A DNA stretch of 64,000 bases, from assembly GCF_003612555.1 (NCBI RefSeq), contig NZ_RAZF01000003.1, forward strand, positions 124,001-188,000, in the 5' to 3' direction. Source of the stretch: Acutalibacter sp. 1XD8-33 (GTDB taxonomy: Bacteria; Bacillota; Clostridia; Oscillospirales; Acutalibacteraceae). This document shows, piece by piece, positions 16,354 through 48,448 of the stretch (position 1 is its first letter; each line of letters starts with the position of its first letter). Below the pieces are notes generated by a model, which saw nothing but the letters and a program-made list of their open reading frames with translations, did no database searches and was not told where the DNA came from. The position numbers and the translations under genes were made by a program.

Positions 16354-16534
16354 TTAAAGCAATCCCGCACAAAGATTGTGCGCGAGTTGCGCAGTAGATT
16401 TTTTTGTCAGCTTGTACGAATCGAGCGCAGACAACCTGGCGATTGACAAGCGACATTGGTGCAAGATGATGAAAAAAGATCAAGCAAATCGTGCGCAAAG
16501 ACCGTAGGCCGGTCTTTGTGCGGGATTGCCTTAA
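16354..16534. repeat. Family G element with 17 bp terminal inverted repeats
   Basis: GCAATCCCGCACAAAGA at 16359-16375 reappears exactly inverted at 16513-16529. Flanked by TTAA on both sides. The right flank TTA at 16531-16533 is the stop codon of the ATPase gene. About 180 bp, non-coding, inside the ABC operon. Confidence 0.8.
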
Positions 16535-17382
16535 GAATTGGTGAGCTGAATAAACAACTTTTGCAGGTCCATGGGGCCAAACTCCAGGTCTTTGGCAGCC
16601 TCTCCGTCTTTTTCCGGGACGCCCTGCACATAGGCGGTGCGCAGGCCACCCAGAACATCCACGCCCAGCACGTTTTTGCCCTGGATATAAGCCTCTACGG
16701 CCGCTGCCCCGCCGGAGACGGTATAGCCCCCGGCCAGCAGGGTTTCCCGAGACTCCTGCCGCAGGATTTCGCCGTCCTTGATGATTACCACGTCTTCCAC
16801 CAGGTTCGCCACCTCTTCGATCAGGTGCGTGGAGAGCACCACGGTAAAGGGAGTTTCCGCGTATTTTTCCAGCAGGCGCTTGTAAAAGAGCTCCCGATGG
16901 TTGGCGTCCAGACCCAGCACAGGCTCATCCAGCAGCACATAGGGGACGTTCACCGACAAGGCCAGGATCAGCTTGAAGATGGAGCGGTATCCTGTAGACA
17001 GTCCGGAAATTTTTGATTTGGGAGCCAGCCCGAAGTCCGCCAGCAGCTTCTCCGCATACTCCCTGTCAAAGCCGGGGTAAAAGGCCTTTGCCCAGCGAAA
17101 AGCGCCGTTGACCCGCATCCCGTCCGGATGTAAAGCGGTCTCGCTCATCAGAAAGATCTTGGACTGGGCCCGGTCGTTTTCCAGAGCGTTTTCGCCGTCT
17201 ACCAGTACCGCCCCCTCGTCGGGGAAAATGCGGTTTGTCAGGATATTCAGCAGGGTAGATTTCCCCGCGCCGTTGCGGCCCAGCAGGCCGTAGATCCGAT
17301 TCTCCCCGAACACGGCATTGACCCCTTTCAAGGCCCGCACCTGCCCGAAATCTTTGGAAATGTTCTGCATCTGTATCGCCAT
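16531..17382 (-). CDS. ABC transporter ATP-binding protein (YtrB-like)
   Basis: 283 residues. Walker A GLLGRNGAGKST, Walker B YVLLDEP, His in STHL. The signature is the divergent LSTGYRS in place of LSGGQ, as usual for YtrB/YhcH-type ATPases controlled by GntR regulators. The last 60 residues form an extra C-terminal domain typical of this group. Start 17382 lies 4 bases after the gntR stop. Its TAA stop coincides with the end of element G. Pairs with the permease downstream. Confidence 0.92.
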   Translation of the reverse strand: MAIQMQNISKDFGQVRALKGVNAVFGENRIYGLLGRNGAGKSTLLNILTNRIFPDEGAVLVDGENALENDRAQSKIFLMSETALHPDGMRVNGAFRWAKAFYPGFDREYAEKLLADFGLAPKSKISGLSTGYRSIFKLILALSVNVPYVLLDEPVLGLDANHRELFYKRLLEKYAETPFTVVLSTHLIEEVANLVEDVVIIKDGEILRQESRETLLAGGYTVSGGAAAVEAYIQGKNVLGVDVLGGLRTAYVQGVPEKDGEAAKDLEFGPMDLQKLFIQLTNS

Positions 17383-17386
17383 TCTC

Positions 17387-17773
17387 TTATCTTCCTTTCT
17401 CGATACCGTCAAATTCCCGCGCTACCATGTCCAGCAGCTCCTGCCGGGGAATGCCCAGCCGCTTGGCCTCTGCCGCCATGGCGGCCACAAAGCGGCTGGA
17501 GAACTCTCCTCGGCGCTTCTTTTGCAACAAAGCCCTGGCCCCTTCCGCCACAAACATGCCTACGCCCCGCTTCTTATAGGCCGCGCCCTGGTCCACCAAC
17601 AGGTTGATGCCCTTCAGGGCCGTGGCGGGGTTAATGGTGTACTGCACGGAGAGCTCCGTGATGGACGGAAGCTGTCCCCCCTCCGGCAAAGCGCCGGACA
17701 GTACCGCGTCCTCCAGGCTCTCGGCGATTTGCAGGAAAATGGGCTTTTCTCCGCTTAGATCCAGCTTTTGCAT
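17387..17773 (-). CDS. GntR family transcriptional regulator, YtrA subfamily
   Basis: 128 residues, the short YtrA type: an N-terminal winged helix (PIFLQIAESLEDAVLSGALP, LPSITELSVQYTINPATALKG) and a short C-terminal helical dimerisation part, without an effector-binding domain. Regulates its own ABC operon in known cases, in response to envelope stress. Start at 17773 with a strong AAAGGGGG upstream. A matching inverted repeat lies just downstream of the promoter. Confidence 0.92.
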   Translation of the reverse strand: MQKLDLSGEKPIFLQIAESLEDAVLSGALPEGGQLPSITELSVQYTINPATALKGINLLVDQGAAYKKRGVGMFVAEGARALLQKKRRGEFSSRFVAAMAAEAKRLGIPRQELLDMVAREFDGIEKGR

Positions 17774-17794
17774 GTGTACCCCCTTTCTGAATCG

Positions 17795-17816
17795 GTTAAC
17801 TACTCAAGTAACTAAC
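17795..17816. promoter_or_regulatory. Candidate YtrA/GntR operator
   Basis: Imperfect palindrome GTTAACTACT-CAAGTAACTAAC in the short leader between the -10 box and the gntR start, where bound repressor would block transcription. Confidence 0.5.
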
Positions 17817-17825
17817 TATGCGACT

Positions 17826-17854
17826 AGTATACCACTGCTCCCGACACTTGTCAA
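17826..17854 (-). promoter_or_regulatory. Sigma-A promoter of the gntR-ABC operon
   Basis: Minus strand TTGACA (17849-17854), 17 bp, TATACT (17826-17831). Near-consensus. Confidence 0.85.
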
Positions 17855-17993
17855 GGGGAATGGAAAAATATTTCAAATTTATTTCCACGCTTCTTGCCGG
17901 GGGCGGGACCCAGGCAAGAAGCGCGCCCACCAGACCGCCGAAAAAGCCAAAGGGCCTGCCGCCCGCATTCACAGGCAGCAAACCCTTTTCGTT

Positions 17994-18086
17994 TATAGTA
18001 AACGCACTGGGCGGCTGAGGATCTCGTGGCCTCCCCCACCTGGTTCAAAAGAGCTGGAATCCCTCTTTTGAACCGCGTTAACTATA
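17994..18086. repeat. Family B element (B4)
   Basis: Ends TATAGTAAACGCACTGGGCG and GAACCGCGTTAACTATA, with the TTCAAAAGAG/CTCTTTTGAA palindrome and the GGCGGCTGAG middle but without the AAAATCGGTA hairpin. 93 bp, opposite orientation to the copy at 12478. Confidence 0.8.
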
Positions 18087-18094
18087 GTTTCGAT

Positions 18095-18279
18095 TTAGAA
18101 CCTGTATTCATAGCCGAAAATGCTGGCAAGGCGAGGATTTTTCGTGCCAATCCAGGCAAATTCGCAGAGTTGCTTGCAACTCTTAGGTATCACTTGCCGT
18201 ATGGCAAGCGGATTTAACGACGAGCGACACGAAAAAGACCGCTTTGGCAGTGTTTGCAGGCTGTGAATACAGGTTCTTA
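18095..18279. repeat. Family E element with about 20 bp terminal inverted repeats
   Basis: TTAGAACCTGTATTCATAGC at the left; the right end read inverted is TAAGAACCTGTATTCACAGC. Direct TTA on both flanks. The right TTA (18277-18279) is the stop codon of the adjacent membrane pseudogene. About 185 bp with an internal CACTTGCCGTATGGCAAG palindrome. The ends resemble those of IS5-type insertion sequences, which is an impression only. Confidence 0.8.
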
Positions 18280-18763
18280 CTTTTGGAACCGCTGCGAGAG
18301 GATGTCTCTCCTGTGCCTGAAATGAATTCCAATATGACCCACGCCCAGCACCGCCGCTGCCAGAACCATCCAGACCACCCGGCCATAGATCCCCAGAAGC
18401 AGAAACGCCACTACCGGCAACACCGCCCCCGGCACTGGTATCCCCAGAAAGGAGCCGTAGAAGTCCTCCAGCCTTCGGGGACTGCGGAAGTACCGCCCCC
18501 ACCACAGCTCATACAGCAGCATCAGCAGGACAGAACCGGCCAGCCACAAGCTCCAAGCAGACCAGGGCTTGAGGTTAAAGTCTCGGAAAAATCAGAGCGC
18601 AGCAGGTAGTCCCCGCCTCCCCGATCCGCTCCACAGCCTGAAGGAAAGGGCTTTCGCCCTGGGCGGAGTAGCCCTCCGGCTTGGCGCGCGTCCAGAAAAG
18701 GTTCGGGGCGAAGAGCATCAGAAGATAGACCAGCCCCACATAGGAAAATCCCAGGTTCCCCAT
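18277..18763 (-). pseudogene. Small integral membrane protein gene split by a one-base frameshift
   Basis: The first part (18763 to about 18585, starting MGNLGFSYVGLVYLLMLF) and the second part (from about 18590 to 18277, with LLYELWWGRYFRS and FLGIPVPGAVLPVVAFLLLG) are consecutive pieces of one conserved membrane protein of about 160 residues. Reading breaks at a run of five A (18587-18591; five T on the coding strand). Removing one base joins the frames as ALIF-RDFNLKPW. Either a true pseudogene, a slippage site, or a sequencing error in the homopolymer. Stop codon lies in element E. Confidence 0.8.
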
Positions 18764-18766
18764 GGC

Positions 18767-20392
18767 CTACTTGAAATAGAGGGCATTGTTCAGAGCCCGG
18801 TCTGTGGGCCCGTAAAGCCACTGGCCGTTTACGTACAGGTTGGTGGACCCGCCGCCGTCCAGGTTCACGGCGCTCTGGCAGCCCATGACGGCCATGATGC
18901 CGGAGAGCTCCGGCAGGCTGGCATAGGCGGTGAGGATCAGCAGGGAGCCGTCGTACCGCACGCCGATGCACACCCGGCGGGCCTGGGATTCGCCCCCGAT
19001 CCCGCCCAGGCCCTCCGCCGCGTAGGTGGAGGCGTTGCCATAGGGCCGGCCGTTTTCCACGATCTTGGGCCCCGCCGCAATGGACAGCTCCACATCCTGG
19101 GTGCTGGAGCCCGTGTACTCTGTCTCAAACCGCAGATACGCTCCGGGAGTGGCGGCCTGAATGAAGCTATCGTCCGCCCGGGGACCCCGCTGGGCCAGGA
19201 CATAGCCGTCCTTGGGAATGGACACGTCTTGGTTCTGACAGAGGGCGGTCACGCGGCCGGAGCCGTCCACCACGGCGGCGTATCTGGCCTGGAAGCCCAG
19301 GCTGCCCCCCCAGTCGCTGGTGAAGATCAGCCGGGTGCCGTCCTTGGGGTCATAGGGGAAGCGGTTGGCGCCCACGTCCTTGACGGTGAGCTCCCGGCCG
19401 TCTGCGGCGGATACCGTGGCGGAGATGTTGGTCCTGTAATTCTCCACGGAGAACCGGCCGGAGGAATCCATGACAATGGCAGACTTGGCCGGGGAGAACT
19501 GGTTGTACACGGTGATCGGACGGCCCTCATGGATGATGGTGCCGTAGGCGTCGTAGGAGCCGAACTCGAAGAAGCCCCCGTTCACGGCGATTTTGGCCCC
19601 CACGCGGCTGAAGAGGGACTTGGCCTGCTCCGCGCCCCGGACCCTGTCATTGCCCAGAGCGACCCCTGCCGTGAACTGGCCGGGGTCAAACTCTACCGCA
19701 GCAATAGGCATGCCGTTCAGGCGCTTTCGAATAATCTTGTAGCCCGCCGACTGGGCTGTCTGCAAAAAGCGGGAGTACAGCACGGCCGCCTCGCTGCGCT
19801 TCGCCACGCCCTTGGGCCGGAAGGTCATGTCGCCGTAGCCATCGATCACCCCCGCCCGCTGGCATTTGGTCACGCTGTCCACCGCATAGCTGGAAATAGA
19901 GCGGTAGTCCAGAAACAGCTTGGGGCCGTTGATGGCGGGCAGGTCCAGGCCTGTGGCCTTGGCGTATTTTACCACCATCACCGCCATGTCCTGGCGGGTC
20001 AGCTGCTTCTCCGGTTCGAATTTCCCGCCGCCAACGCCTCCTGCCACGCCGGCCTCGCTGGCCCAGTTCACATAGCGGTTGGCCCAGTGCTTCTGGGGCA
20101 CGTCAGAAAAAATCCCCCGGTAGGTATACTGGCCCAGCTCCCCTTCGCTGAGAGCGGTTCTCGCCAGCATGGTGACGAACTCCCCTCTGGTTAGTGTGCC
20201 GTTGGGCTTGAAGGTATTTGTTCCTTTGCCGTTCATGATGCCCCGGTCCACCATCTCCTGCACGGCGGAGGCGTACCAGCTTCCTGCGGACACATCGGAA
20301 AACCTCGCGGCCCCGGCATAGGCCGGAGCCAGGGCGCACAGCAGCGCTGCCGTCAAAAATAACGCCAGGCACTGGCAGAGTCTTTTTTTCAT
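18767..20392 (-). CDS. SLH-domain, secreted phosphodiester glycosidase family protein
   Basis: 541 residues. Signal peptide (MKKRLCQCLALFLTAALLCA, cleavage near AYA-GA), then three S-layer homology repeats to about residue 205 (FSDVSAGSWYASAVQEM; FSDVPQKHWANRYV; a more divergent third), then a NAGPA-type phosphodiester glycosidase domain with IAVNGGFFEF near residue 275 and the diagnostic NLDGGGST near the end. Predicted to be held on the cell wall through SLH binding and to act on phosphodiester-linked sugars in wall polymers. Start 20392 follows GGGGAGA. Confidence 0.9.
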   Translation of the reverse strand: MKKRLCQCLALFLTAALLCALAPAYAGAARFSDVSAGSWYASAVQEMVDRGIMNGKGTNTFKPNGTLTRGEFVTMLARTALSEGELGQYTYRGIFSDVPQKHWANRYVNWASEAGVAGGVGGGKFEPEKQLTRQDMAVMVVKYAKATGLDLPAINGPKLFLDYRSISSYAVDSVTKCQRAGVIDGYGDMTFRPKGVAKRSEAAVLYSRFLQTAQSAGYKIIRKRLNGMPIAAVEFDPGQFTAGVALGNDRVRGAEQAKSLFSRVGAKIAVNGGFFEFGSYDAYGTIIHEGRPITVYNQFSPAKSAIVMDSSGRFSVENYRTNISATVSAADGRELTVKDVGANRFPYDPKDGTRLIFTSDWGGSLGFQARYAAVVDGSGRVTALCQNQDVSIPKDGYVLAQRGPRADDSFIQAATPGAYLRFETEYTGSSTQDVELSIAAGPKIVENGRPYGNASTYAAEGLGGIGGESQARRVCIGVRYDGSLLILTAYASLPELSGIMAVMGCQSAVNLDGGGSTNLYVNGQWLYGPTDRALNNALYFK

Positions 20393-20459
20393 ATACAATC
20401 TCCCCTTTCCCCTTCTAGAGTCTGTCTTAAGACCTGCGGTCAGCGGGCCTTTTCAGGTC

Positions 20460-20476
20460 TATAGTTATTAACTATA
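20460..20476. repeat. Minimal family B-like palindrome (B5)
   Basis: TATAGTTATTAACTATA: a nearly perfect 17 bp palindrome with the family B ends only, in the leader of the SLH gene. Could also be chance or an operator. Confidence 0.4.
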
Positions 20477-20528
20477 AGACCGCGTCCAATTTCCTTGAAA
20501 AAAGCATTTCTGTGGAAATATAAATTCT

Positions 20529-20557
20529 ATTGTAGCATATTCTGCAAAAAATGTCTA
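20529..20557 (-). promoter_or_regulatory. Candidate promoter of the SLH glycosidase gene
   Basis: Minus strand TAGACA (20552-20557), 17 bp, TACAAT (20529-20534), about 140 bases before the start. The rest of 20393-20704 holds only B5 and the divergent promoter. Confidence 0.55.
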
Positions 20558-20621
20558 CTATCCTATAAAAATGTAAAAACTTGCCAGGAATGGCCGCTGA
20601 AAAAGGGTTCAAGAAAAAGAT

Positions 20622-20650
20622 TTGCATTTTCTGAGGTTTTCTTGTAATAT
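20622..20650 (+). promoter_or_regulatory. Candidate promoter of the zinc-ribbon membrane protein gene
   Basis: TTGCAT (20622-20627), 17 bp, TAATAT (20645-20650); an overlapping TATAAT lies at 20650-20655. Confidence 0.5.
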
Positions 20651-20704
20651 ATAATACGTGGGCTAGTTTTCGCCACGCTATCAATGATTATGGAGGGTCT
20701 TATT

Positions 20705-21724
20705 ATGATTTGTCCCAACTGCGGCCGGAATATCCCCGACGGCACCGTCTGTCCCTGCACGCTGGAAGCGCCGCCGCCCCTGCTCTCTGACAACCCGGCG
20801 GTGAACGTGGTGAAAACCATCGGTTCCTCTCCCCTCTTCCTGACCATGGCCATTCTGTTCTCCGCCTCTGCCCTGCTCACGGTATTCTCCTCTATGGGCT
20901 TGAGCGACGCGCTCTCCAACATTTACTACTATGCCTATGCCTATGGCCTGTACGATTACATAGATTCCATTGCCAACATGCTGGATATGATCCGTGCCAC
21001 ATCCGTAGCCAACGCTATCATCGGCTCCATCCCGGCCATCCTGCTGGCGGTTGCCATGTGGATCCACTTTGTCACCTGCCGCAATCGCATGTCCGGCAAC
21101 ATCTCCACCGCCGGGCTCACCATCTGCAAGGTATTCCGGTACATTTATATGGTCGCTCTCTGCCTGTGCGCCTTTCTGGTCCTGGCTGGCATTGCCCTGG
21201 TGCTGATCGTTGTTTTATCGGAAGGTGTTCCTCCCATGGCCTTTGCCGGCAGCGAGGATGAGGTGCTCCTCTCCATTATCGTCATCATGGCGATTGTGAC
21301 CTTGGTGTGCATCTTTGCTTTCGTGCTGGGGATTACCTATCAGGCCAGCCTGATCCGCATGATCAACCGCACCAAAACCGTGGCACAGTCCGGCATGGCC
21401 GATGACCGGGTCTCCAGCTATCTGGTGGGCATGACCTATTTTGTGGCGGTGTGCACGCTGATCTCCGGGGTTTTCGCGCTGTTCACCGCCCCTATCAGTG
21501 CTGTGGGCACTCTCTGCCAGGGGTCTGCCCTGATCCTCGCCGCCGTGCTCCTGGGCCGCTACCGTACCGCCATGAACCAGGTTCTGTTCCCGCCGGTGCA
21601 ACCTGCCGTGCCGCCCATGTACGCGGACCTGTTCCCCGGCCAGCAGCCTCAGCAGGCTGGTCCCGACGGGCAGCCCGTTCCCCAGGATCCGGCGGACGGC
21701 TTCCAGCAGCCTCCCCAGCAATAA
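20705..21724 (+). CDS. Zinc-ribbon integral membrane protein of unknown function
   Basis: 339 residues from the ATG at 20705 (GGAGGG upstream). Opens with a zinc ribbon, MICPNCGRNIPDGTVCPC, then about six membrane helices between residues 45 and 290, and a Pro/Gln-rich C-terminal tail (QQPQQAGPDGQPVPQ) of about 40 residues that is probably disordered. Such zinc-ribbon plus membrane proteins are common in gut Clostridia and lack a known role. Followed 8 bases later by a Nudix gene. Confidence 0.8.
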   Translation: MICPNCGRNIPDGTVCPCTLEAPPPLLSDNPAVNVVKTIGSSPLFLTMAILFSASALLTVFSSMGLSDALSNIYYYAYAYGLYDYIDSIANMLDMIRATSVANAIIGSIPAILLAVAMWIHFVTCRNRMSGNISTAGLTICKVFRYIYMVALCLCAFLVLAGIALVLIVVLSEGVPPMAFAGSEDEVLLSIIVIMAIVTLVCIFAFVLGITYQASLIRMINRTKTVAQSGMADDRVSSYLVGMTYFVAVCTLISGVFALFTAPISAVGTLCQGSALILAAVLLGRYRTAMNQVLFPPVQPAVPPMYADLFPGQQPQQAGPDGQPVPQDPADGFQQPPQQ

Positions 21725-21732
21725 GCAGCCCT

Positions 21733-22236
21733 ATGGTAGAGATTTGTTTGCAGGCGGAGGGCTTGCCTGAAAAGGGAAGCGTGTTCCGCCGCAGGGCGGC
21801 CCGGGGAATTGTGGTTAAAGAGGGAGAACTCTTGCTGATTCACACAGGCGCGGGGGATTATAAATTTCCCGGAGGGGGCGTGGAATCGGGCGAAACCCTG
21901 GAGCAGGCCCTGGCCCGGGAAATGCTGGAGGAAACCGGCTATCCGGTCCTGGAAACAGGGGAAATTCTGGCTCTGGCCCACGAGCGCCGAGCCGGGCGGA
22001 CCGCGGATATTCTGGAGATGGACTCCTACTATTTCCTGTGCCGCCTGGGCCAAGAGCAGGTGCCCCTTCATCTGGACGAATACGAGGAAGCGGAGCATTT
22101 CCGCCCGGTGTGGGTTTCTCTGGAGGAAGCTCTGGCTGCCAACCGCGCCCTGCTGGAAGGAAAATCCATTCCCTGGCTGGACCGGGAGGTCCGGGTGATG
22201 GATGCTTTGTGGGAAGTTGATTTTTCATACTTTTGA
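21733..22236 (+). CDS. Nudix hydrolase
   Basis: 167 residues. Nudix box GGGVESGETLEQALAREM followed by LEETGY (Mg-binding Glu cluster), so it hydrolyses a nucleoside diphosphate linked to another group; substrate not predictable. The start at 21733 has no good ribosome site and may be coupled to the upstream gene, so the true start is uncertain. The stop TGA lies in CATACTTTTGAGAG, which resembles an end of family C, and family A copy A2 begins 8 bases later. Confidence 0.85.
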   Translation: MVEICLQAEGLPEKGSVFRRRAARGIVVKEGELLLIHTGAGDYKFPGGGVESGETLEQALAREMLEETGYPVLETGEILALAHERRAGRTADILEMDSYYFLCRLGQEQVPLHLDEYEEAEHFRPVWVSLEEALAANRALLEGKSIPWLDREVRVMDALWEVDFSYF

Positions 22237-22243
22237 GAGATTG

Positions 22244-22394
22244 TTAGAAGCTGTACCGATAGGATTTCTATTTTGGTTTTCGAGCAAATTCAGTGGAGAG
22301 CAGCAATCTGGCGATTGGCGAGTTTTCACAACACCGCTTCCCGGCTGAATTTGCCGGAAAGGAGAATGCAAACGCCTATTGGTACGGCTTCTTA
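22244..22394. repeat. Family A element, simple form (A2)
   Basis: 151 bp. Ends TTAGAAGCTGTACCGATAGG and (inverted) TAAGAAGCCGTACCAATAGG, flanked by TTA. Interior CAAATTCAG...CTGAATTTG can extend the pairing to a long imperfect hairpin. No coding capacity. Confidence 0.85.
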
Positions 22395-22422
22395 CGGAAC
22401 AGCTTAAATCAAGGAGGAAATT

Positions 22423-24584: not shown

Positions 24585-24705
24585 TAAGAAGCCGTACCAA
24601 TAGGCGTTTGTATTCCCCTTTCCGGCAAATTCAGCCGGGGAGTGGCGTTATAAAAACTTGCCAATCGCCAGATTGCTTCTCCCCACTGAATTTGCTCGAA
24701 AAGCG

Positions 24706-24756
24706 TATACTTTTTGAGAGATCGTGTGCGCAGCCACTTGTCTCTCAGAAAGTATA
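24706..24756. repeat. Family C element (C2)
   Basis: TATACTTTTTGAGAGA to TCTCTCAGAAAGTATA, 51 bp, inverted relative to C1 and again joined to a B element through a shared TATA. Confidence 0.75.
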
Positions 24757-24809
24757 GTTAACGCAGTTCAAAAGAGGTAATATATCGATTTTCAAGTGTG
24801 TTTACTACA
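24753..24809. repeat. Family B element, short form (B6)
   Basis: TATAGTTAACGCAGTTCAAA to AAGTGTGTTTACTACA; matches B2 in layout. Confidence 0.7.
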
Positions 24810-24871
24810 ATACAAATCCTATCGGTACAGCTTCTAAAAGTAAAGAAAGCTGCGGGAAAAGAGGAAGAAGT

Positions 24872-29376: not shown

Positions 29377-29491
29377 TATAGTAAACGCACGTGAAAATCG
29401 GTATATACCGATTTTCACGCTGGGCGGCACAGCAGCTGTTGCGCCGTCTGGTTCAAAAGACGCATACCTCTTTTGAACTGCGTTAACTATA
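29377..29491. repeat. Family B element, full length (B7), overlapping the end of dacF
   Basis: TATAGTAAACGCACGTGAAA to GAACTGCGTTAACTATA, 115 bp. It carries the TGAAAATCGG...CCGATTTTCA hairpin, the GGGCGGC middle, and a TTCAAAAGA...CTCTTTTGAA palindrome. Its right end supplies the last two codons and the TAA stop of dacF. Confidence 0.85.
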
Positions 29492-30649
29492 TTGTGCGCC
29501 AAACCACCCCCGCACCGTCTGCCAAAGGCCTTCCCAGAAGCCGGGTTCTTCCGGCAAAAGGGCCTCCACCCCTTCCGCCGCCAGGATGGGCACGCTGTAA
29601 ATCTCCTGCCCCCCTGCCAGATACTGCACCCTGCCCACCTTCTCGCCCTTTTCCACCGGCGCGTACAGGAATTTGGGCAGCAGCACCCGCCGGACGACAC
29701 CTTCGGCCTCTTCCACCGGCACAGTGGGGGTTACGCCCTCCCCCGCCCGCAGGGGAACCTCCTCTCCCCCCGCCACGGCAAGAGAGCCCGGAATCTCCCC
29801 TCCGTCCAGCGACAGGGTTTTCACCGTCTGAAAACCGTAATCCAGCAGAGCCATGTGGTCGTTCCAGTCGTCCGGGGCGTTGAGGGTGACCGCGATCAGG
29901 GTGGTGCCCTCCCGTCGGGCGGCGGAAACCAGACAGCGCCCCGCCTTTTTGGTAAATCCGGTTTTCACGCCAACACAGCCCTCATAGATCCGCAGCAACT
30001 TGTTATGGTTGGAATAGGTGACCTTCTGGGCGGGTTCCAGGAACTCCACCTGGAGGCTGGCGCTGCCGGCAATCCGGGCAAACTCGGGATTTTCCAGAGC
30101 CTCCCGGGCCAAAATGGCCATGTCGTAGGCAGTGGAGTAGTGTTCCTCGTCGTCCAGGCCGGAGGGGGTGACGAAATGGGTATCCTTCATGCCGATCTCC
30201 CCCGCCCGGGCGTTCATCATGTCCCCAAAGGCCTCCTGGCTTCCGGCCAGATACAGGGCGGCGGAGTTGGCCGCGTCGTTGCCGGAGGCCAGAAGCATCC
30301 CCGCCGTCAAGTTTGAGAGGGTCAGCCGGTTTCCCTCCTGCAGGCCCATGGAAGAGCCCTCCACCCGCACCATCTCCCCGGTAATCTCCAACGCCGGATC
30401 GCCGGAACGGGCAGCCTCCTCCAGGGTGAGCAGGGCCGTCATAATTTTAGTGGTGCTGGCCATGGCCAGCTGCTCGTGGGCATTCTTCTCAAAGACCACG
30501 GCCCCGTCCCCGGCGGAAATCAGCACCGCGCTCTGGGCGGACACCCCGGGGGCCTGGGCCTGGGCCCCTGGGCAAAAGGCCCCCAAAATCCAGGCCGCAA
30601 GAGCCCCCCAGGCCGCTATTCGTATGGACTTTTTCAAAAAACAAGTCAC
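29483..30649 (-). CDS. dacF: D-alanyl-D-alanine carboxypeptidase, DacF type
   Basis: 388 residues. Signal peptide to about residue 31, then the S11 serine peptidase domain with SxxK (ASTTKIM), SGN and KTG motifs, and a C-terminal beta domain plus an amphipathic tail (FWEGLWQTVRGWFG) that would bind the membrane. Trims the stem peptide of peptidoglycan; DacF acts in spore cortex synthesis in Bacillus. Start GTG 30649 is tentative; a TTG at 30637 has better spacing. Last gene of the scpAB-ytfJ operon. Stop codon lies inside repeat B7. Confidence 0.93.
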   Translation of the reverse strand: MTCFLKKSIRIAAWGALAAWILGAFCPGAQAQAPGVSAQSAVLISAGDGAVVFEKNAHEQLAMASTTKIMTALLTLEEAARSGDPALEITGEMVRVEGSSMGLQEGNRLTLSNLTAGMLLASGNDAANSAALYLAGSQEAFGDMMNARAGEIGMKDTHFVTPSGLDDEEHYSTAYDMAILAREALENPEFARIAGSASLQVEFLEPAQKVTYSNHNKLLRIYEGCVGVKTGFTKKAGRCLVSAARREGTTLIAVTLNAPDDWNDHMALLDYGFQTVKTLSLDGGEIPGSLAVAGGEEVPLRAGEGVTPTVPVEEAEGVVRRVLLPKFLYAPVEKGEKVGRVQYLAGGQEIYSVPILAAEGVEALLPEEPGFWEGLWQTVRGWFGAQYS

Positions 30650-36676: not shown

Positions 36677-36709
36677 CCGGCGGCTGAGGGCTTTGCCCCC
36701 CGTCCCCCA

Positions 36710-36740
36710 CCACCTTTGAAAAGGTGGACGAAACTTTTAC
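36710..36740 (+). repeat. Hairpin module H
   Basis: CCACCTTTGAAAAGGTGG stem-loop followed by ACGAAACTTTTAC. Same core as copies at 41216, 45359, 56586, 58371 (inverted) and 61679, with different but compensated arms. Confidence 0.7.
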
Positions 36741-36907
36741 TCTGGTTAGTTGTGTGCGGTAAAGCCAGACACATTGCGCGGTCCAAGACTTGGCGAAGCC
36801 AAGTCTCAGGCGTCTAGGCCCCTGGCGTGGTGTGGAGCAGAGCTCCACGACCTTGCCGGAGGGCACGTGTGCCCTCCGGCCATAACATACATCAAAAACA
36901 TTTCCCA

Positions 36908-41090: not shown

Positions 41091-41130
41091 TTTTGAGCCC
41101 CCATCTGATTCGCGGTGTATTTTCGTAAAG

Positions 41131-41372
41131 TATACTTTTTGAGAGTAATACTGTGTGGCCTCCGCCGCAAGGGGCGCGGCTTCGGCGCTTAGGGGCGTTG
41201 CCCCTAAGAACCCCACCACTTTTGAAAAAGTGGACAAAACTTTTTCCCTGGTTAACTTTTGCGCACTCAGCTCACCAGCGTAAAAGTTTCGCCAGCCTTT
41301 TCAAAGGCTGCGGGGTTTTTTGGGGGGAACCCCTAAACCGCCGGAGGCCAAAACACACTCTCAAAAAGTATA
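41131..41372. repeat. Long family C element (C3) enclosing other repeat material
   Basis: Ends TATACTTTTTGAGAG and CTCTCAAAAAGTATA, 242 bp. The interior contains module H (41216-41245) and GC-rich inverted pieces (AGGGGCGTTGCCCCT; AGCCTTTTCAAAGGCT). Terminal TATA is shared with a partial family B element. Confidence 0.7.
41216..41245 (+). repeat. Hairpin module H
   Basis: CCACTTTTGAAAAAGTGG followed by ACAAAACTTTTT. One arm pair differs from the 36710 copy (C-G to T-A) with pairing kept. Confidence 0.65.
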
Positions 41373-41390
41373 GTTTCACACAGTTCAAAA
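41369..41390. repeat. Partial family B element (B8)
   Basis: TATAGTTTCACACAGTTCAA: one end of family B in decayed form. The TTCAAAA part holds the stop codon of the next gene. Confidence 0.5.
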
Positions 41391-41690: not shown

Positions 41691-41905
41691 TGGGGTTCCT
41701 CCTCATCCGGCGCCCAATCTGGCAGGGGCGCCGGCCCTTTTTTGTGTCCGCTCTTGCGTTTCCGGACACATTCCGTCAGCAGAAATTCAATCTGCCCGTT
41801 AATGGAGCGAAAATCGTCCTCCGCCCATTCCGCCAATTCTTTCCACAGGCTGGGGGAAATACGCAGCAGAATCTGCTTTTTTGACTTGTCACTTTTTTCC
41901 TCCAT
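41687..41905 (-). CDS. Ribbon-helix-helix (Arc-type) DNA-binding protein
   Basis: 72 residues. KKQILLRISPSLWKELAEWA and DFRSINGQIEFLLTECV match an Arc/MetJ ribbon-helix-helix, followed by a basic patch and Pro-rich acidic tail. Probable regulator, or a small adaptor, of the SPFH operon. 19 bases after the SPFH gene. Confidence 0.82.
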   Translation of the reverse strand: MEEKSDKSKKQILLRISPSLWKELAEWAEDDFRSINGQIEFLLTECVRKRKSGHKKGPAPLPDWAPDEEEPQ

Positions 41906-41924
41906 GGGTATCCCCCCAGTCTGC

Positions 41925-42956
41925 TTAATAGATGGACCCGCTGTTTACCACCGGCTGAGCGTCTTTGCTGCCGCAGAGCACCACCAGCAGGTTGCTTACC
42001 ATGGCCGCCTTTCGCTCGTCGTCCAGCTCTACCACCTGATCGGCGTTCAGCTGGTCCAGGGCCATTTCCACCATGCCCACGGCGCCCTCCACAATCTTCT
42101 TCCGGGCCGCCACAATGGCCTCGGCCTGCTGCCGCTGGAGCATGGCCGCCGCAATCTCCGGAGCGTAGCTCAGGTGGGTGATACGCACCTCCAGGATCTC
42201 CAGCCCCGCCATGGAAACCCGCTCCTGCAAGTCCTTGGTCATCATAGCGGCAATCTCCTGGCTGCTGCCCCGCAGGGTCTTTTCGTTTTGGTCGTCCTCG
42301 TCAAACAGGTCATAGGGGTACATCCGGGCGATGTTCCGGGTGGCGGAGTCACACTGGGTGGACAGGAAGGTCCGGTAGTTCTGTACATTGAACACCGCCT
42401 TGGTGGTGTCCACAATCCTCCAGATCACGATGGTGCCGATGATAATGGGGTTGCCCCGCTCGTCGTTGACGGTCTGCTTCTCGTTGTTCAGGGTCATGGT
42501 CTTTAGGCTGACCTTCTTGCTACCGCCCACGTAGCTCATGCTGCCGTTGGCCCCCATAGTGATGCCTGTGCGCTCTGAGCCGGGGTTGATGCCGGAGCAG
42601 AAGATGTTGGTCCAGTAGAAACCGTCCTTTTTCAGGGTGCCGTAGTATTTGCCGAACAGGGTGAGCACCAGGGCCTCGTTGGGATTCAGCACATGGAACC
42701 CGGCGCAGAGAATGCTTCCTGCCGTTACCACGAGGATGCCGCCGAACAGCAGAACCATGCCCAGGGCGCTGACAGCGTCCTCACTGCCCATCTCGGCGGC
42801 GTAGCGCACCAGTTCCATAATACCGAATACGATTCCCCCGATTCCTACTGCAATCATCAGTAGGATCACCACCAACATCGCGAAGCCACTGTAGGCCCGG
42901 GCGGTCTTTTCGGTATAGCGGTTGACAATTCTCTCCGTATTCTCATTGTTTTCCAT
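41925..42956 (-). CDS. SPFH/Band 7 domain membrane protein
   Basis: 343 residues. Two N-terminal membrane helices (about 23-50 and 64-86), then the SPFH domain beginning at [20 protein letters not shown], with the [23 protein letters not shown] segment and a C-terminal helical oligomerisation region. Flotillin-like scaffold of membrane microdomains; the group with an RHH partner is widespread in gut Firmicutes but unexplained. Promoter immediately upstream. Confidence 0.9.
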
Positions 42957-43002
42957 AGGTATTCCCCTTTCATCACCGGCTATGTTGATTGCCTTTGATA
43001 TT

Positions 43003-43031
43003 ATTATAATATCATTTCATATCATTGTCAA
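43003..43031 (-). promoter_or_regulatory. Sigma-A promoter of the SPFH operon
   Basis: Minus strand TTGACA (43026-43031), 17 bp, TATAAT (43003-43008). Near-consensus; the -10 region sits in the palindrome GATATTATTATAATATC, a possible operator for the RHH protein. Confidence 0.85.
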
Positions 43032-43061
43032 GAGAAATCTATAAAAACATTGTCCAGTGAT

Positions 43062-43641
43062 TTACGCTTTTGGAGCTATCTGTTTTAGCGCTTTTTCGAG
43101 AAAGCAACAAATTTCCTTATGAGAACGCAAAACAATGAATTTCTGAGGGTATTCTTTGCCCAGCGCCATATAAATGTCCTGATACCTTTTCCAATTTTTC
43201 GCGTCATATATCCATTTTTTGATTTGCCTTCGGCCTAATTCGTGCAAGGGGAGAACCTGATAATCCGCATATTTCTCGCTTTCTGAAGATAAATTGGTTT
43301 GCCCTCTATAAGAGCAAGATACATACCGGAAAGCGGTTTTTATGGCACGACCTATAGCCTGGCTAAGACATTTCCAGAAATTTAGATTCAAGAACACAAT
43401 CGCGTCTGCCATTTCCAGCCATTTCTTATCGACATATTCCCGTATGTACCCATCTATAACCCAGTTTTCCACATTATTCAGCTACGTTTCAAACGCTTCA
43501 TGGATTTCAGAAATTTCTCGGATTTTTAGGTCGCCTCGGATAAACAGCTTCATCCACATGGAGGAGGTTATAGCCCCTCCCTAGAGAGTTGGCCAACGTG
43601 GTTTTGCCCACACCGCTATATCCAATAATCACCATTTTCAT
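43062..43641 (-). pseudogene. P-loop kinase / FlaR (topology modulation)-like gene, frameshifted with an in-frame stop
   Basis: From ATG 43641 (GGAGGAG upstream) the frame reads MKMVIIGYSGVGKTTLANSL and LLHVDEAVYP, then ends at 43507 or so. The conserved continuation (WVIDGYIREYV, ADAIVFLNLNFWKCL, then a long basic C-terminus) is in another frame from about 43550 to 43062, interrupted by a TAG just before ENWVIDGY. So one frameshift near the HVDE segment and one nonsense codon. The DNA is AT-rich compared with its neighbours. ATG overlaps the stop of the GNAT-GGCT gene. Confidence 0.8.
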
Positions 43642-44618
43642 GCAAGCTCCTCCTTTCCTCTCTTCTTTAGCTCCGGCCCGGGCTTCAGCCCGAAATCTCG
43701 GTAGCCCGCCAGGCAGCGTTCCACATATTCCCGGCCAGGCTCCGTCTCCACATGGCCGGGAACCATCACATAGACAAAAGCCTCTGCCCGGCGGGTCCGG
43801 CCCGTGGCCAGCTCCTGAAACTCCACCTGGATTTCCTCCTTGCTATACAGCTCCGGGTAAACCTCATACTCGTCCAGGGCCAGCTCATCCTCCGGGGTTA
43901 CCGCCCAGAGGGCCATGGGGGCCACGCCTCCCTCACAGGGCTCCACAGTCAAATAGACGCCCCTGCCACCCGCCCGGAACACCAGGCGGTAGTCCCGAAG
44001 CTCTCCCACGCCAACCGCCTGGGCCTGGGGGCAGCGGACCGCCATCTCGACCCGGTTCAGGTTGCTGCCATAGGCCACATAGAGTCTGCGGCTGTCTCCC
44101 ATGGCTTTCTCCAGATCCAGCACAAACCTGCTGCCCTCCGGGGTGCGCTCCCCCTCCCGAAAGCCGCAGGAGAGGAACAGCCGCCGGGAGCCTTCGTTGT
44201 AGCGGTAGATCTCTTTCACTGTCATAGCAGGGAAATCCAGCTCCCTGGCCCGGGCGATGAGCGCACGGACCACCCGCCGTCCAATCCCCCGTCCCCGGCA
44301 CTCTTCCGGGCCGACGACAATGGGCAGGTCGCCTCCAGGGAGAAGGCACACGTCCCCGATGGGGGCGAAGCCCTGCCCCCGGTCCTCCTCTATCCAATAG
44401 AGCTCGCCGTTTTGATGGAGATAGCTGTACATTCTCTCCAGCCTCTCCGGAGTATAAGGCTTGGCGGAAGGGCTGTCCACCAGGCGGGCGGTCTCCGGGT
44501 CCCGATACCACGCAAGGGCGCTGGCGGAAAGCGCAGGGGTCAGGCCGGAAAACCGGCGCAGGCGCAGGCCTGGTCCCAAAGAGATATATTCTGGCTGAGA
44601 AATGTGATTGATCGGCAT
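43638..44618 (-). CDS. GNAT acetyltransferase fused to a gamma-glutamylcyclotransferase-like domain
   Basis: 326 residues. N-terminal GNAT domain (about 1-172) with the acetyl-CoA loop GPEECRGRGIGRRVV; C-terminal GGCT/AIG2-like domain (about 178-326) beginning LYVAYGSNLN, the diagnostic YGSNL loop, with Glu in LDEYEVYP in the catalytic position. A fusion suggests linked modification of a peptide or gamma-glutamyl amine. No family member known to me in this exact combination with an assigned role. Confidence 0.85.
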   Translation of the reverse strand: MPINHISQPEYISLGPGLRLRRFSGLTPALSASALAWYRDPETARLVDSPSAKPYTPERLERMYSYLHQNGELYWIEEDRGQGFAPIGDVCLLPGGDLPIVVGPEECRGRGIGRRVVRALIARARELDFPAMTVKEIYRYNEGSRRLFLSCGFREGERTPEGSRFVLDLEKAMGDSRRLYVAYGSNLNRVEMAVRCPQAQAVGVGELRDYRLVFRAGGRGVYLTVEPCEGGVAPMALWAVTPEDELALDEYEVYPELYSKEEIQVEFQELATGRTRRAEAFVYVMVPGHVETEPGREYVERCLAGYRDFGLKPGPELKKRGKEELA

Positions 44619-44630
44619 AGGGAAGCCTCC

Positions 44631-45020
44631 TTACTGGTGCAGGTCCTCTTTGATCTGGGTGGTGGAGATCTCCGGCGTCCTGGGCAGGTAGACTACCTGA
44701 CAGTAGTCCTTGAGGAAGTCGAACTTTCCGGTCCAGTCGTCGCCCATGACAAAGGTGTCCACATGATAGAGCTGCACGTCATTGACCTTCTGCTCCCAGC
44801 ACTCCTCGGGGATCACCAGGTCCACATAGCGGATGGCCTCCAGCAGCTGCTGGCGCTTCTGGTAGGAGAAGTAGCATTTTTTCTGCTTGCTGTTCCAGTT
44901 GAACTCATCGGTGGAAAGGGCCACGATCAGGTAGTCCCCCAGCTCCCGGGCTCGCTTGAGCAGGTTGATGTGGCCGTAATGGATCAGATCGAAGGTTCCG
45001 TAGGTGATGACACGTTTCAT
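44631..45020 (-). CDS. tagD: Glycerol-3-phosphate cytidylyltransferase
   Basis: 129 residues, TagD length. Cytidylyltransferase motifs TYGTFDLIHYGHINLL (HxGH) and RTPEISTTQIK. Makes CDP-glycerol for teichoic or other wall polymers; paralogues transfer CMP to other sugar or alcohol phosphates. No tag genes nearby. Start after GGAGAAC. Confidence 0.92.
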   Translation of the reverse strand: MKRVITYGTFDLIHYGHINLLKRARELGDYLIVALSTDEFNWNSKQKKCYFSYQKRQQLLEAIRYVDLVIPEECWEQKVNDVQLYHVDTFVMGDDWTGKFDFLKDYCQVVYLPRTPEISTTQIKEDLHQ

Positions 45021-45175
45021 GGCGTTCTCCTTTTCTTTAAATTTTGATATGGGACGCGGGAAGAAAGCCGGGCGAGCAGGCAGGCCTTACCGCCCGCGTT
45101 CCAGGCCGGGCGGGCTCGGAATTTGTCCCGCCTGCCTGCCGCACAGCGCTTGTCTACTCCGGGACCAGGGCTTTT

Positions 45176-45199
45176 GTCCCGCCTGCTCCGCAGTCGGGA
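45176..45199 (+). repeat. Intergenic module I (copy 1)
   Basis: CCCG...CGGG hairpin with the core CCTGCTCCGCAGTCGGGA, identical over 24 bases to the copy at 61530-61553. A related CCAGGGGACTTT segment is near both. Confidence 0.65.
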
Positions 45200-45358
45200 A
45201 GTTCCTGAAAGCGCTGGCTTACTCTGGTTTCCAGGGGACTTTTTTCTCTTGCAAAAAGTCCCCTCTTGGCGCTGCGCGCCAATTCACCTTCAAAAAATGC
45301 GCTTCTCAGGTGTTAAGGTCAAGGGCAAGACCGTGGGACGTTGCTAAGGCACACCCTA

Positions 45359-45388
45359 CCACCTTTGAAAAGGTGGACGAAACTTTTA
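45359..45388 (+). repeat. Hairpin module H
   Basis: CCACCTTTGAAAAGGTGG followed by ACGAAACTTTTA; identical arms to the 36710 copy. Confidence 0.7.
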
Positions 45389-45464
45389 TGGTTGTTAGGT
45401 TAGCTTGTCAAAACAATATAAAACGTTCACGACGAACGAAGTAAAGAAGCAGGATAAAAGTTTG

Positions 45465-45532
45465 TGGGGTGTGGGGGTGAGCATCTGCCAGTGGCAGACA
45501 TGCCGCGAACCGACCGAGCCGGCAGGCGAGAC
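45465..45532 (+). repeat. Intergenic module D (copy D2)
   Basis: GGGTGAGCATCTGCCAGTGG, CAGACATGCCGCGAACCGAC, GGCAGGCGAGA; central hairpin GTCTGCCACTGGCAGATG on the other strand. Confidence 0.7.
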
Positions 45533-45567
45533 CAGAGCCCCCAAGGTCTTGACCTTTGGGTGCGGTC

Positions 45568-48156
45568 TTAGCCCTTGGCGGCGTACCAGGTTTCCCCGGC
45601 GCTGGCCTCGGCGATCATAGGCACAGAGAGGGAGACAGCCTGTTCCATCTCCTCGGTGAGCAGGCGCTTCACCTGGTCCTGTTCCTCTGTCGGGCATTCC
45701 ACGATGAGCTCATCGTGGACCTGGAGGATCATCCGAGCCCGGAGGCCCTCCGCTTCCAGGCGGCGGCTCACCCGGATCATGGCGATCTTGATGATATCCG
45801 CCGCGGCCCCCTGGATGGGCATGTTCCGGGCCACCCGCTCCCCAAAGGCCCGCATGTTGAAGTTGCTGCTGCGCAGCTCCGGCAGGTACCGCCTGCGGCC
45901 AAACATGGTCTCCACATAGCCCTGCTCCCGGGCCCGCTCCGCCACGTCCTTCATATATTGGTCCACCCCGGCGTAGTTGCGCAGGTATTCCTTGATATAG
46001 GCGTCCGCCTCCTTCCGGCTGACCCCGATGTCCTTGGAAAGAGAGAAGGCCCCGATGCCGTACACAATGCCGAAATTCACCGCTTTGGCCCGGCTGCGCA
46101 TCTCAGAGGTCACCAGCTCCTGGGGCATATTGAACACCCTGGCCGCTGTGGAAGAGTGGATGTCGTGTCCCTGGAGAAAATCCTCCCGCATGGCGGGGTC
46201 GTTGGCCACATGGGCCAGCACCCGCAGCTCGATCTGGCTGTAGTCCGCGTCTACCAGGACACAGGGGCCTCCCACCTGCTCCGCCGCGAAAAACTTCCGC
46301 AGCTCCCGGCCGATGGGCGTGCGCACGGGAATGTTCTGCAAATTGGGCTCTGTGCTGGAGATCCGCCCAGTGCGGGTTTCCATCTGGTTGAAGCTGGAGT
46401 GGATCCGGCCATCGGGACCAATTACTTTCAGCAGGCCGTCGCAGTAGGTGGATTTCAGCTTGGCCACCGTGCGGTAGCGGAGGATCTCGTCCACCACCGG
46501 ATTGATATGCCGCAGGTCTTCCAGCACGTCCGCGTTGGTGGACCAGCCGCTTTTGGTCTTTTTGCCGTGGGGCAGGCCCAACTTCTCGAACAGAGCCTCC
46601 CCTAGCTGCTTGGGGGAGTTGATGTTGAATTCATAGCCTACCTGCTCAATGATGGAGTCGTGAAGCCGCTCCACCTCCTGTTCCATCTGCTGGCCGTATT
46701 CCTCTATGCTCTCCTTATCCACATAGAATCCGATATGCTCCATCTGGGCCAGCACCTGGGCCAGAGGAATCTCGATACTTTCCAGCAGTTCCCGCTGGTT
46801 ATTTCCGTCTATGGCTTTGGAGAGGGCGGCGCAGAGCCCCGGCATCGCCGCCGCGCCATTGAGGGACGGATCCTCAAAGTCCGGCAGGGCCACAGCATAT
46901 TCCGCCGCCAGGCGGGCCAGATCGTAGCTGGAAGCGGAGGGGTTCAGCAAATATCCGGCCAGAGCGGTATCCATTGCCACCCCCTCCATCCGGCATTCCA
47001 GAGAAAAGGCCAGCCGGTGCAGAGGTTTCACGTCATGGGTATATTTGCGGATCAGGGGATTGGGCAGAAAGGCCCGCAGAAAGACCCTGTCAGGTTTCAC
47101 CCGCCAAAGCTGGTCCTTGTGGGCGAAAATGAGCTCGTCCAGAACAGGCGTTTCCTCAGCTTGGACCCATTTGCAATAGAAATAGGCCTCACCCGCGTCC
47201 TCCAGCCTGGGCAGCATGGGGGCACCATCGGAGAGCTCCACCAGCTCCGGGCGGCCGGCAGCGGGGGCGGCCGACTGTCCGGACACAACGGTAAGCCCAA
47301 ACTTCTCTACCAATGAGAACAGCTCCAGGCGCACCATCAGAGCCCCGGCCTTCTGGGGGTCCCCCGCCCCAGGCACATAGCTCTGGATATCTGTGTCGAT
47401 GGGCGCGTCCCGGCGGATGGTCCCCAGGTCGTAGCTCAAAAAGGCGTTCTCCCGGGAGGCCTCCAGCTTCTTTCTGGCGGCGGGCTTGATGGCCGGGTCC
47501 TCCAGGTGGGCGTAGATATTCTCCAGGGAGCCGAAGGCCTGCACCAGCTCCCCCGCGCCCTTGGGACCGATGCCCGCCACGCCGGGGATGCAGTCTGAAC
47601 TATCCCCCTGGATGGCCTTCAGGTCGATCATCTGGCGGGGGGTAATCCCATACTCCTCCTGGATCTTGGCCTCGTCGTACAGGGTGACCTGGGGCTGGCC
47701 GAACTTGGTGGTAGCCAGGCGCACGGTGGTGCGGGGGGAGACCAGCTGGAGGCTGTCCCGGTCGCCGGTGGCAATCATGCAGTCGTGGCCGTCCTTTTCG
47801 CAGGCGGCGGCCAGGGTGCCCAGAATGTCGTCCGCCTCCCAGCCCTCGCAGGTAACAATCCGGTAGCCCAGGTCCGCAAGGAGCTCTTTGAGCAGGGGAA
47901 GCTGCTGGGCCAGTTCCTCCGGCATTCCCTTGCGGTTGGACTTGTACCCAGCGTATTTCTTGTGGCGGAAGGTGGGCGCCCGCATGTCGAAGGCAACCGC
48001 TACCGCGTCGGGCTGGGTCTCCCCGGCGATTTTTTGGAACATGGTGAGGAACCCATAGATGCCGTTGGTAAAGTCGCCGGATTTTGTGCTCAGGAGCTTG
48101 ATGCCGTAGAAGGCCCGGTTCAGGATGCTGTTGCCGTCCAGAACAAGAAGTTTCAT
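45568..48156 (-). CDS. polA: DNA polymerase I
   Basis: 862 residues. 5' nuclease domain (about 1-290, KLLVLDGNSILNRAFYGI, AVAFDMRAPTFRHK, GDRDSLQLV), then a 3'-5' exonuclease-like domain that lacks a clear DxE catalytic motif and is probably inactive as in Bacillus, then the family A polymerase domain with motif A DADYSQIELRVLAH, motif B RSRAKAVNFGIVYG and motif C QVHDELIVE. Functions in repair and lagging-strand maturation. Start 48156 follows GGAGG; the long upstream frame crosses the leader hairpin. Confidence 0.97.
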   Translation of the reverse strand: MKLLVLDGNSILNRAFYGIKLLSTKSGDFTNGIYGFLTMFQKIAGETQPDAVAVAFDMRAPTFRHKKYAGYKSNRKGMPEELAQQLPLLKELLADLGYRIVTCEGWEADDILGTLAAACEKDGHDCMIATGDRDSLQLVSPRTTVRLATTKFGQPQVTLYDEAKIQEEYGITPRQMIDLKAIQGDSSDCIPGVAGIGPKGAGELVQAFGSLENIYAHLEDPAIKPAARKKLEASRENAFLSYDLGTIRRDAPIDTDIQSYVPGAGDPQKAGALMVRLELFSLVEKFGLTVVSGQSAAPAAGRPELVELSDGAPMLPRLEDAGEAYFYCKWVQAEETPVLDELIFAHKDQLWRVKPDRVFLRAFLPNPLIRKYTHDVKPLHRLAFSLECRMEGVAMDTALAGYLLNPSASSYDLARLAAEYAVALPDFEDPSLNGAAAMPGLCAALSKAIDGNNQRELLESIEIPLAQVLAQMEHIGFYVDKESIEEYGQQMEQEVERLHDSIIEQVGYEFNINSPKQLGEALFEKLGLPHGKKTKSGWSTNADVLEDLRHINPVVDEILRYRTVAKLKSTYCDGLLKVIGPDGRIHSSFNQMETRTGRISSTEPNLQNIPVRTPIGRELRKFFAAEQVGGPCVLVDADYSQIELRVLAHVANDPAMREDFLQGHDIHSSTAARVFNMPQELVTSEMRSRAKAVNFGIVYGIGAFSLSKDIGVSRKEADAYIKEYLRNYAGVDQYMKDVAERAREQGYVETMFGRRRYLPELRSSNFNMRAFGERVARNMPIQGAAADIIKIAMIRVSRRLEAEGLRARMILQVHDELIVECPTEEQDQVKRLLTEEMEQAVSLSVPMIAEASAGETWYAAKG

Positions 48157-48195
48157 GAAGGATACCTCCTTGAAGTGTGGGGTGTTTATAAAGAA

Positions 48196-48221
48196 ACCCC
48201 GGAGAATACCGTCTCCGGGGT
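48196..48221 (-). terminator. Attenuator-like hairpin in the polA leader
   Basis: Minus strand ACCCCGGAGA pairs with TCTCCGGGGT around a short loop and is followed by TTCTTTAT. It begins about 16 bases after the predicted start of transcription and ends 40 bases before polA, so it would terminate early unless bypassed. Confidence 0.6.
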
Positions 48222-48243
48222 GAAGCCACTGCTTTACGAAATT

Positions 48244-48272
48244 ATTATAGCACAGTCCGCCGGGATTTGCAA
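48244..48272 (-). promoter_or_regulatory. Sigma-A promoter of polA
   Basis: Minus strand TTGCAA (48267-48272), 17 bp, TATAAT (48244-48249). Confidence 0.8.
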
Positions 48273-48297
48273 GAAAAAATTGGGCAAGCATTACAAT

Positions 48298-48448
48298 TTA
48301 GAAGCTGTACCGATAGGATTTGCGTTTTGGGTTTCGAGCAAATTCCGTCGGGAGCAGCAATCCGGCGATTGGAAAGCTTTCATAACGCCGCTTCCCGGCT
48401 GAATTTGCCGAAAAGAGGAATGCAAACGCCCATTGGTACGGCTTCTTA
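48298..48448. repeat. Family A element, simple form (A4), ending on the dusB stop codon
   Basis: 151 bp, TTAGAAGCTGTACCGATAGG to (inverted) TAAGAAGCCGTACCAATGGG. Same length and layout as A2. Flanking TTA at 48446-48448 is the TAA stop of dusB. Confidence 0.87.

Follow-up and report, generated by a model that had tools for sequence, protein, structure and literature searches.

Foldback elements with a TNA target coincide with stop codons more often than chance predicts in two genomes of one genus

Why should short non-coding elements end exactly on the stop codons of unrelated genes? The question is raised by a 64-kb stretch of DNA (the window) from a 3.62-Mb genome in 106 contigs (99.98% complete). 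An earlier note on this DNA attributed the coincidence to a transposase that duplicates a 3-bp target, for which TAA stops would be a common choice. We find that observation, as stated there, partly confirmed, and below we count how often it occurs and weigh what may cause it.

Elements and stop codons in the window

The features that bear on the question are the following (strand given where assigned).

15286-15530, plus strand: element A1, TTA flanks, off-stop, with a B element nested at 15311-15365
16354-16534: element G, 22-bp inverted repeats, TTA(A) at either end
18098-18276, plus strand: element E, 179 bp, TTA flanks, end-to-end fold
18277-18279, minus strand: duplicated target forming the TAA stop of an 81-aa called ORF (18277-18522)
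22247-22391, plus strand: element A2, TTA flanks, off-stop
24588-24834, minus strand: element A3, TAA flanks, off-stop, with a B element nested at 24753-24809
29377-29491: element B7 of a TA-target family, supplying the dacF stop TAA at 29483-29485
48301-48445, plus strand: element A4, 145 bp, TTA flanks at 48298-48300 and 48446-48448
48446-48448, minus strand: duplicated target forming the TAA stop of dusB (48446-49429, Pfam Dus)
58390-58421: 15-bp perfect hairpin holding the rnfA stop (58417-58419), outside the A/E system

All six copies of A, E and G carry the direct flanks described in the earlier note: TTA/TTA at A1, A2, A4 and E, TAA/TAA at A3, and TTA/TTA (or TTAA/TTAA) at G. Among the A copies, A4 lies on a stop, its flank being the TAA of the Pfam-supported dusB as described in the note; A1, A2 and A3 do not. 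The right-hand TTA of G (16531-16533) is, as proposed, the TAA that stops a Pfam-supported ABC ATPase gene on the minus strand (16531-17382); with one full copy of G in the window's genome, besides a weak match of 72% over 100 bases, no rate for G can be stated. The flank of E, read in the note as the TAA of a membrane pseudogene, is the TAA stop of the 81-aa called ORF, for which no Pfam match was found. Likewise the rnfA TAA does lie in a hairpin, a plain one with no TNA-flanked element at that place, and the TGA of the gene at 41385, assigned in the note to a partial B element, adjoins a different inverted-repeat element (arms at 41127-41146 and 41357-41376). These arms occur at one copy of a further repeat family, which has a 45-nt core at 36705-36749, 41211-41255 and 45354-45398.

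A and E belong to the foldback MITEs and duplicate a 3-bp TNA target: they are short and non-coding, have inverted-repeat ends, occur in many copies and carry no transposase, and all four N of the TNA target are observed among them, which bears out the target type that had been proposed. The elements fold as long hairpins over their whole length (z -5.4 to -8.9), as expected if insertion adds a hairpin; A4 reaches -59.3 and -71.8 kcal/mol on its two strands (z -5.6 and -7.3), element E a z of -7.7 and a copy from G011, a genome of the same genus, -8.9. No Rfam family was matched in window positions 12000-50000. Not all are short: a few run to as much as 762 bp, and one encloses a gene; this 762-bp copy (L030:2983-3744) has A-type ends and TAA on both sides, and the enclosed VanZ-like gene (174 aa) is a possible passenger. 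At the short end, three 31-bp mini-copies (L011:3000-3030, L083:2451-2481 and L084:2470-2500), with TAA or TGA flanks, are nearly just two fused ends. Solo ends occur as well: at L020:3007-3009 an A end begins on the TGA that closes a GNAT gene, immediately ahead of a nusA-like gene, and an E end with a TGA flank follows that gene (L020:4355-4373). Ends 0.7-3 kb apart at L016, L020 and L038 were rejected as larger elements because the genes between them are ordinary (a pfkB-family kinase, one read as nusA and one of 343 aa), and they are taken as chance pairs of solo ends.

A candidate mobiliser was found in Oscillospiraceae bacterium isolate B95_20_FP_BP (L166), where an 830-bp element with TAA/TAA flanks carries two overlapping frames matching PF13340 (DUF4096, 4e-21) and PF01609 (DDE transposase, 2e-14); NF033580 (IS5 family transposase) matches each half, below the whole-protein cut-off. 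Its ends fit the end pattern seen across species, and 16 of 17 bases agree by eye with each A end of the window. Judged by this sequence evidence, an IS5-family element of the L166 type is the likely mobiliser of A and E. These would then be non-autonomous MITEs of an IS5-family, IS1031-like insertion sequence, whose transposase would duplicate a TNA target of 3 bp, mostly TTA/TAA, around an inserted foldback of commonly 145-180 bp with ends GAA(G/C)C; that one kind of transposase mobilises both A and E is suggested by their like ends and shared target. In the window's genome no close L166-type transposase was found, and contig gaps could hide one; its absence would bear on present mobility and not on the family to which A and E belong. 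An IS5 copy found there (G000:C106, L149), 29% identical, was rejected as mobiliser, since its ends differ.

The B copies sit in a TA target, unlike the TNA of A and E, and B is a different family. With this target in B and a single copy of G, neither can be pooled with A and E. The earlier note had placed the TAA of dacF in the end of B7; it lies there, but the target is TA and the TAA is supplied by B. The gene (29483-30544, Peptidase_S11) now ends Tyr-Ser-TAA (TAT AGT TAA) from B7 sequence; the joined empty site reads CAA-TAA on the gene's strand, and the target of B was likely dacF's own TAA. Among 23 paired B copies a gene stop lies in or at the end of four and within 15 nt of two more; of the rebuilt empty TA sites, 6/155 that overlap a stop or lie at most 30 nt from it hold B versus 13/864 further away (P = 0.055), a trend made weak by the six of 23 copies that are nested in A. 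Nested B elements occur in several A copies (15311-15365 and 24753-24809 in the window; L362-L364, L367, L370 and L375), apparently at one internal position, and the two may have travelled together as a composite of about 245 bp.

Copies at stop codons and around gene 3' ends

Copies of A and E were collected by pattern search (for A ends, 100 of 234 places were listed), which may miss weak copies, and 37 paired copies in the window's genome were among the matches listed, part of them paired with the help of matching flanks. Solo ends without a partner (e.g. C17:20686, C26:22101, C30:20275 and C61:97461) were left out. A matching TNA duplication is present in 32 of the 37 (30 TTA/TAA, one TGA, one TCA); the five with an imperfect duplication (L010, L013:8935, L035:8257, L038 and L040) were kept in the count. 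Gene calls come from a codon-score program built for the analysis and trained on the window's genome. The duplicated trinucleotide is the exact TAA stop of the adjacent called gene in 12/37 copies among the matches listed (A 6/27, E 6/10). In the same stretches, where TAA is the commonest stop (114/302), 109 of 1,874 non-coding TTA/TAA sites are TAA stops (5.8%), against which 12/37 gives P = 7e-7. Nine of the twelve stop-flanked genes have a Pfam match (dusB, a ROK regulator, a TetR regulator, DUF6144, a LuxR-type regulator with MalT-like repeats, ribosomal protein L35, an amidohydrolase, an SLH/lysozyme protein and the ABC ATPase) and the other three have none.

The sequences show two registers that preserve the stop. 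In the first, a TAA or TGA stop is itself duplicated, leaving the protein whole; in the second, which the earlier note missed, the duplicated TTA shares two bases with a TAG or TAA stop, and TAG is remade by the G that opens the element. At hprK (L017), a second-register copy, the final TA of the duplicated TTA and that opening G together spell the gene's TAG stop, and in six second-register copies the overlap of the target with a TAA or TAG stop persists in the rebuilt empty site. In L098, L111 and L320 the genes continue in the third register into the element, which now encodes their last residues.

Among relatives, 40 loci were examined, 10 of them without a pair. In G011 the duplication is the stop in 7/20 paired copies (null 8.2%) and another 5/20 are in the second register (L087, L089, L093, L097 and L094, the last with an imperfect duplication, TTA/TCA); both registers pooled give P = 3e-8 against a null of 9.6%. 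The excess of A and E copies at stops is more than chance in the window's genome and in G011, so that the genome-wide enrichment on which the earlier note's idea depended is present in both, with 0/11 copies on a stop in four further relatives (G016, G015, G014 and G005). E copies were taken from three (G011, G014 and G038; L265-L294 left out) of ten relatives with matches, and 7/38 lie on a stop (P = 0.006; among the matches listed, 40 rows less two repeats). An end-pattern scan of one genome per species over 84,980 species found at least 107 stretches. The 80 matches listed come mostly from Oscillospiraceae or relatives (Flintibacter muris, Oscillibacter, Pseudoflavonifractor, Anaerotruncus and Neglectibacter sp. 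X58), the rest from a few entries named uncultured bacterium or Clostridia and one Actinomycetota. Near-identical flanks were removed from this set and from the relatives' E set. With Neglectibacter sp. X58 left out (L248 and L250 grouped with it by flank), 8/60 non-coding TAA/TGA sides among the matches listed lie on a stop (3/37 + 5/23, P = 0.02) and 2/47 TTA sides are in the second register; the excess in these copies, found through exact ends, is weaker. The stop excess is replicated in G011, more weakly in the relatives' E copies and in other species, and is absent in the set of 11.

The surroundings of the stop were covered with 106 insertions whose empty sites were rebuilt by script (89 at TTA/TAA, 9 at TGA/TCA, 8 without a TNA flank; two repeated rows, L341 and L345, removed). 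Per 1000 TTA/TAA sites, insertions number 80 at the stop, 71 in the second register, 59 at 1-15 nt downstream, 34 at 16-30 nt, 18 at 31-60 nt, 9 at 61-120 nt, 9 beyond and 0.6 in coding sequence, with the caveat that uncalled genes would dilute the classes far from a stop. The peak comprises the stop and the next 15 nt, and density is 6- to 9-fold lower by 61-120 nt. When local A+T, flank bases and start proximity are entered into a logistic regression, odds ratios are 8.8 for the stop, 7.1 for the second register, 8.3 for 1-15 nt, 3.2 for 16-30 nt and 2.2 for 31-60 nt, and because they persist, local A+T and flank bases were rejected as the cause of the peak; sites within 100 nt of a start have a raised odds ratio of 2.3. 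Where no start lies within 100 nt, the stop and the next 15 nt have like densities (P = 0.51), with 9/167 sites hit at 1-15 nt and 1/430 at 61-120 nt. The enrichment is a gene-3'-end effect covering the stop and the next 15-30 nt.

In same-strand gaps the stop is hit more than the next 30 nt (25/240 vs 11/268, P = 0.005); in convergent gaps it is not favoured (3/97 vs 6/101). Of 32 stop-coincident copies, 28 are followed by a gene on the same strand and three by a convergent one, and one lies at a contig end; for TAA-ending genes overall (n = 259) the next gene is on the same strand in 187 and otherwise in 72. Ages could be assigned to 82/106 copies: among those of at least 100 bp, 23/58 young copies (nearest-neighbour identity at least 0.9) and 15/24 older ones are at a stop or no more than 30 nt from one (P = 0.09). 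As for orientation, A copies on stops turn the right end toward the gene in 14 cases and the left in three, with two undecided (P = 0.013), E copies in 7 and 4. For A copies 1-30 nt downstream of a stop the numbers are 4 right and 6 left, and elsewhere the right end is on the TAA side in 17 and on the other in 8 (P = 0.11), so that the lean may be partly intrinsic.

That insertion at a stop leaves the protein intact, as the earlier note had it, agrees with the usual length that the proteins keep in relatives. The window's genome has an E copy directly after the rpmI TAA. Orthologues of rpmI were readable in 19 of 20 same-genus loci, and all 19 end in TAA at one shared C-terminal motif, 45-150 nt before rplT; no element end was found in the 70 nt after the rpmI stop in 19/19 relatives. 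For dusB, hprK, the ABC gene, the MalT-like gene, DUF6144 and the GNAT gene, 28 gene-relative pairs were compared (pairs below 45% identity excluded; tetR yielded none). C-terminal ends lie 0-1 residue from those of our own proteins in 25/28 and 2-5 residues away in three dusB pairs, and six dusB orthologues end 1-5 residues further on. One pair flagged as an element by a loose pattern was rejected as a short hairpin with a T run. The compared relatives are other species and therefore show unshortened proteins rather than exact empty sites. In the empty-site trinucleotide check suggested in the earlier note, made across species, rpmI has TAA in 19/19, but in the other pairs TAA accounts for 11/28 stops (TAG 5, TGA 12); stops drift between species, which makes this no strict test of the target.

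Proposed survival at stops and its rivals

We regard survivorship at the least harmful site as the main cause of the A/E excess at stops, with a probability of about 0.5. Insertions inside genes would be lost, and what accumulates at the stop and in the first 15-30 nt would mainly be the survivors; in a same-strand gap the stop would be the one site that spares the upstream protein, the intercistronic stretch and the next ribosome site. We count in its favour the near-empty coding sequence (0.6 per 1000), the denser stop in same-strand but not in convergent gaps, and the small share of stop-coincident copies in other species (8/60, among the matches listed). The like lean of B, which has another target, gives one ground for preferring survivorship, although the weakness of this trend, with six of 23 copies nested in A, is also counted against it, as are the enrichment already present in young copies, the convergent gaps, which are not favoured, the right-end lean of A (14 to 3) and the 0/11 in four relatives. 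Sites near a start are hit more, which speaks against survivorship since it shows no loss from control regions, and plain neutrality does not predict that, with no start within 100 nt, density drops past 60 nt. A real insertion preference for gene edges may add to survivorship, and as the maker of the peak itself it is a strong rival that we consider quite possible: the transposition machinery would be drawn to gene edges, above all to the 3' end, the zone in which translation or transcription halts. This would suit the smooth decay over about 60 nt from the stop after control for A+T and flanks, the favoured start-near sites, the enriched young copies and the same-strand next gene in 28/31 stop-coincident copies with a callable neighbour vs 187/259 TAA-ending genes; it fits poorly with the few stop-coincident copies of other species, the like trend of B in a different TA-target system, the convergent gaps and the 0/11.

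That stop-side copies are kept because a long 3' hairpin helps the host, by stabilising, processing or terminating the upstream mRNA, seems improbable to us. The folding of whole elements as one hairpin, the 14-to-3 orientation of A at stops and the prevailing same-strand neighbours would be expected of such a role, but the rpmI site is empty in all 19 relatives, Rfam gave no match in the part of the window searched, and the orientation lean is missing 1-30 nt downstream, weak in E and perhaps partly intrinsic. Plain chance, with TAA stops hit merely as abundant TNA targets in a GC-rich genome, was the earlier note's own explanation and is very improbable: TAA is the commonest stop and the 0/11 would be compatible with it, but availability predicts about 2/37 where 12 are observed, and against nulls of 5.8% and 8.2% (7/20 in G011) chance was rejected for both genomes. 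A wider idea, which we hold tentatively and think rather unlikely, is that of a stop-codon-neutral lineage, in which the TNA target and the leading G would keep stops in both registers and the machinery would be drawn to 3' ends, so that it spreads through operons, even rpmI-rplT, with proteins unharmed.

Known systems

What the counts add is a case of a transposable element settling at gene ends with base precision, which raises the concrete question of insertion bias or later survival. The second register, in which the element's first base remakes the stop, offers a simple reason why G-starting TNA-target elements can be unusually harmless, and because the protein stays intact, gene annotation by itself would show nothing odd at such sites. 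REP/BIME sequences have no target duplication, REP hairpins going with a RAYT transposase; A and E differ in their clear 3-bp duplication.

Among the closest known elements are those of the IS1031 subgroup of the IS5 family. As described in parts of PMC12016507, ISLrh targets TNA, has GAACCTGT ends and carries two overlapping frames; A and E share the 3-bp TNA duplication with this subgroup, the inverted repeats of E begin GAACCTGT as the ISLrh ends do, and L166 falls within the range of about 830-860 bp with two overlapping frames. Unlike members of the subgroup, A and E are without a transposase, and no close copy was found in the window's genome. With bacterial MITEs in general (parts of PMC10969869) they share short, non-coding sequence, terminal inverted repeats, a target duplication, a foldback RNA and a mostly intergenic location; those parts describe no stop-codon excess, and the word "stop" is absent from the review's main text. 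In the titles and abstract openings of the literature among the matches listed (which included excerpts of PMC6382973, PMC5896051 and PMC5658596), a MITE excess at stop codons is likewise undescribed. The Correia and RUP elements, going by parts of PMC2229807, are also small mobile repeats with stops in many frames, but have TA at their ends or target and are in this closer to B than to A and E.

BOX of Streptococcus pneumoniae is the nearest precedent for A and E at stops in the texts compared: in the relevant parts of PMC3049150, 36 CDSs terminate within a BOX element, which provides their stop, with no strong evidence of truncation. BOX supplies the stop, whereas A and E keep or remake a duplicated host stop, and those parts describe no TNA target for BOX. 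A and E are elements of a known kind, in which the stop pattern is unusually clear.
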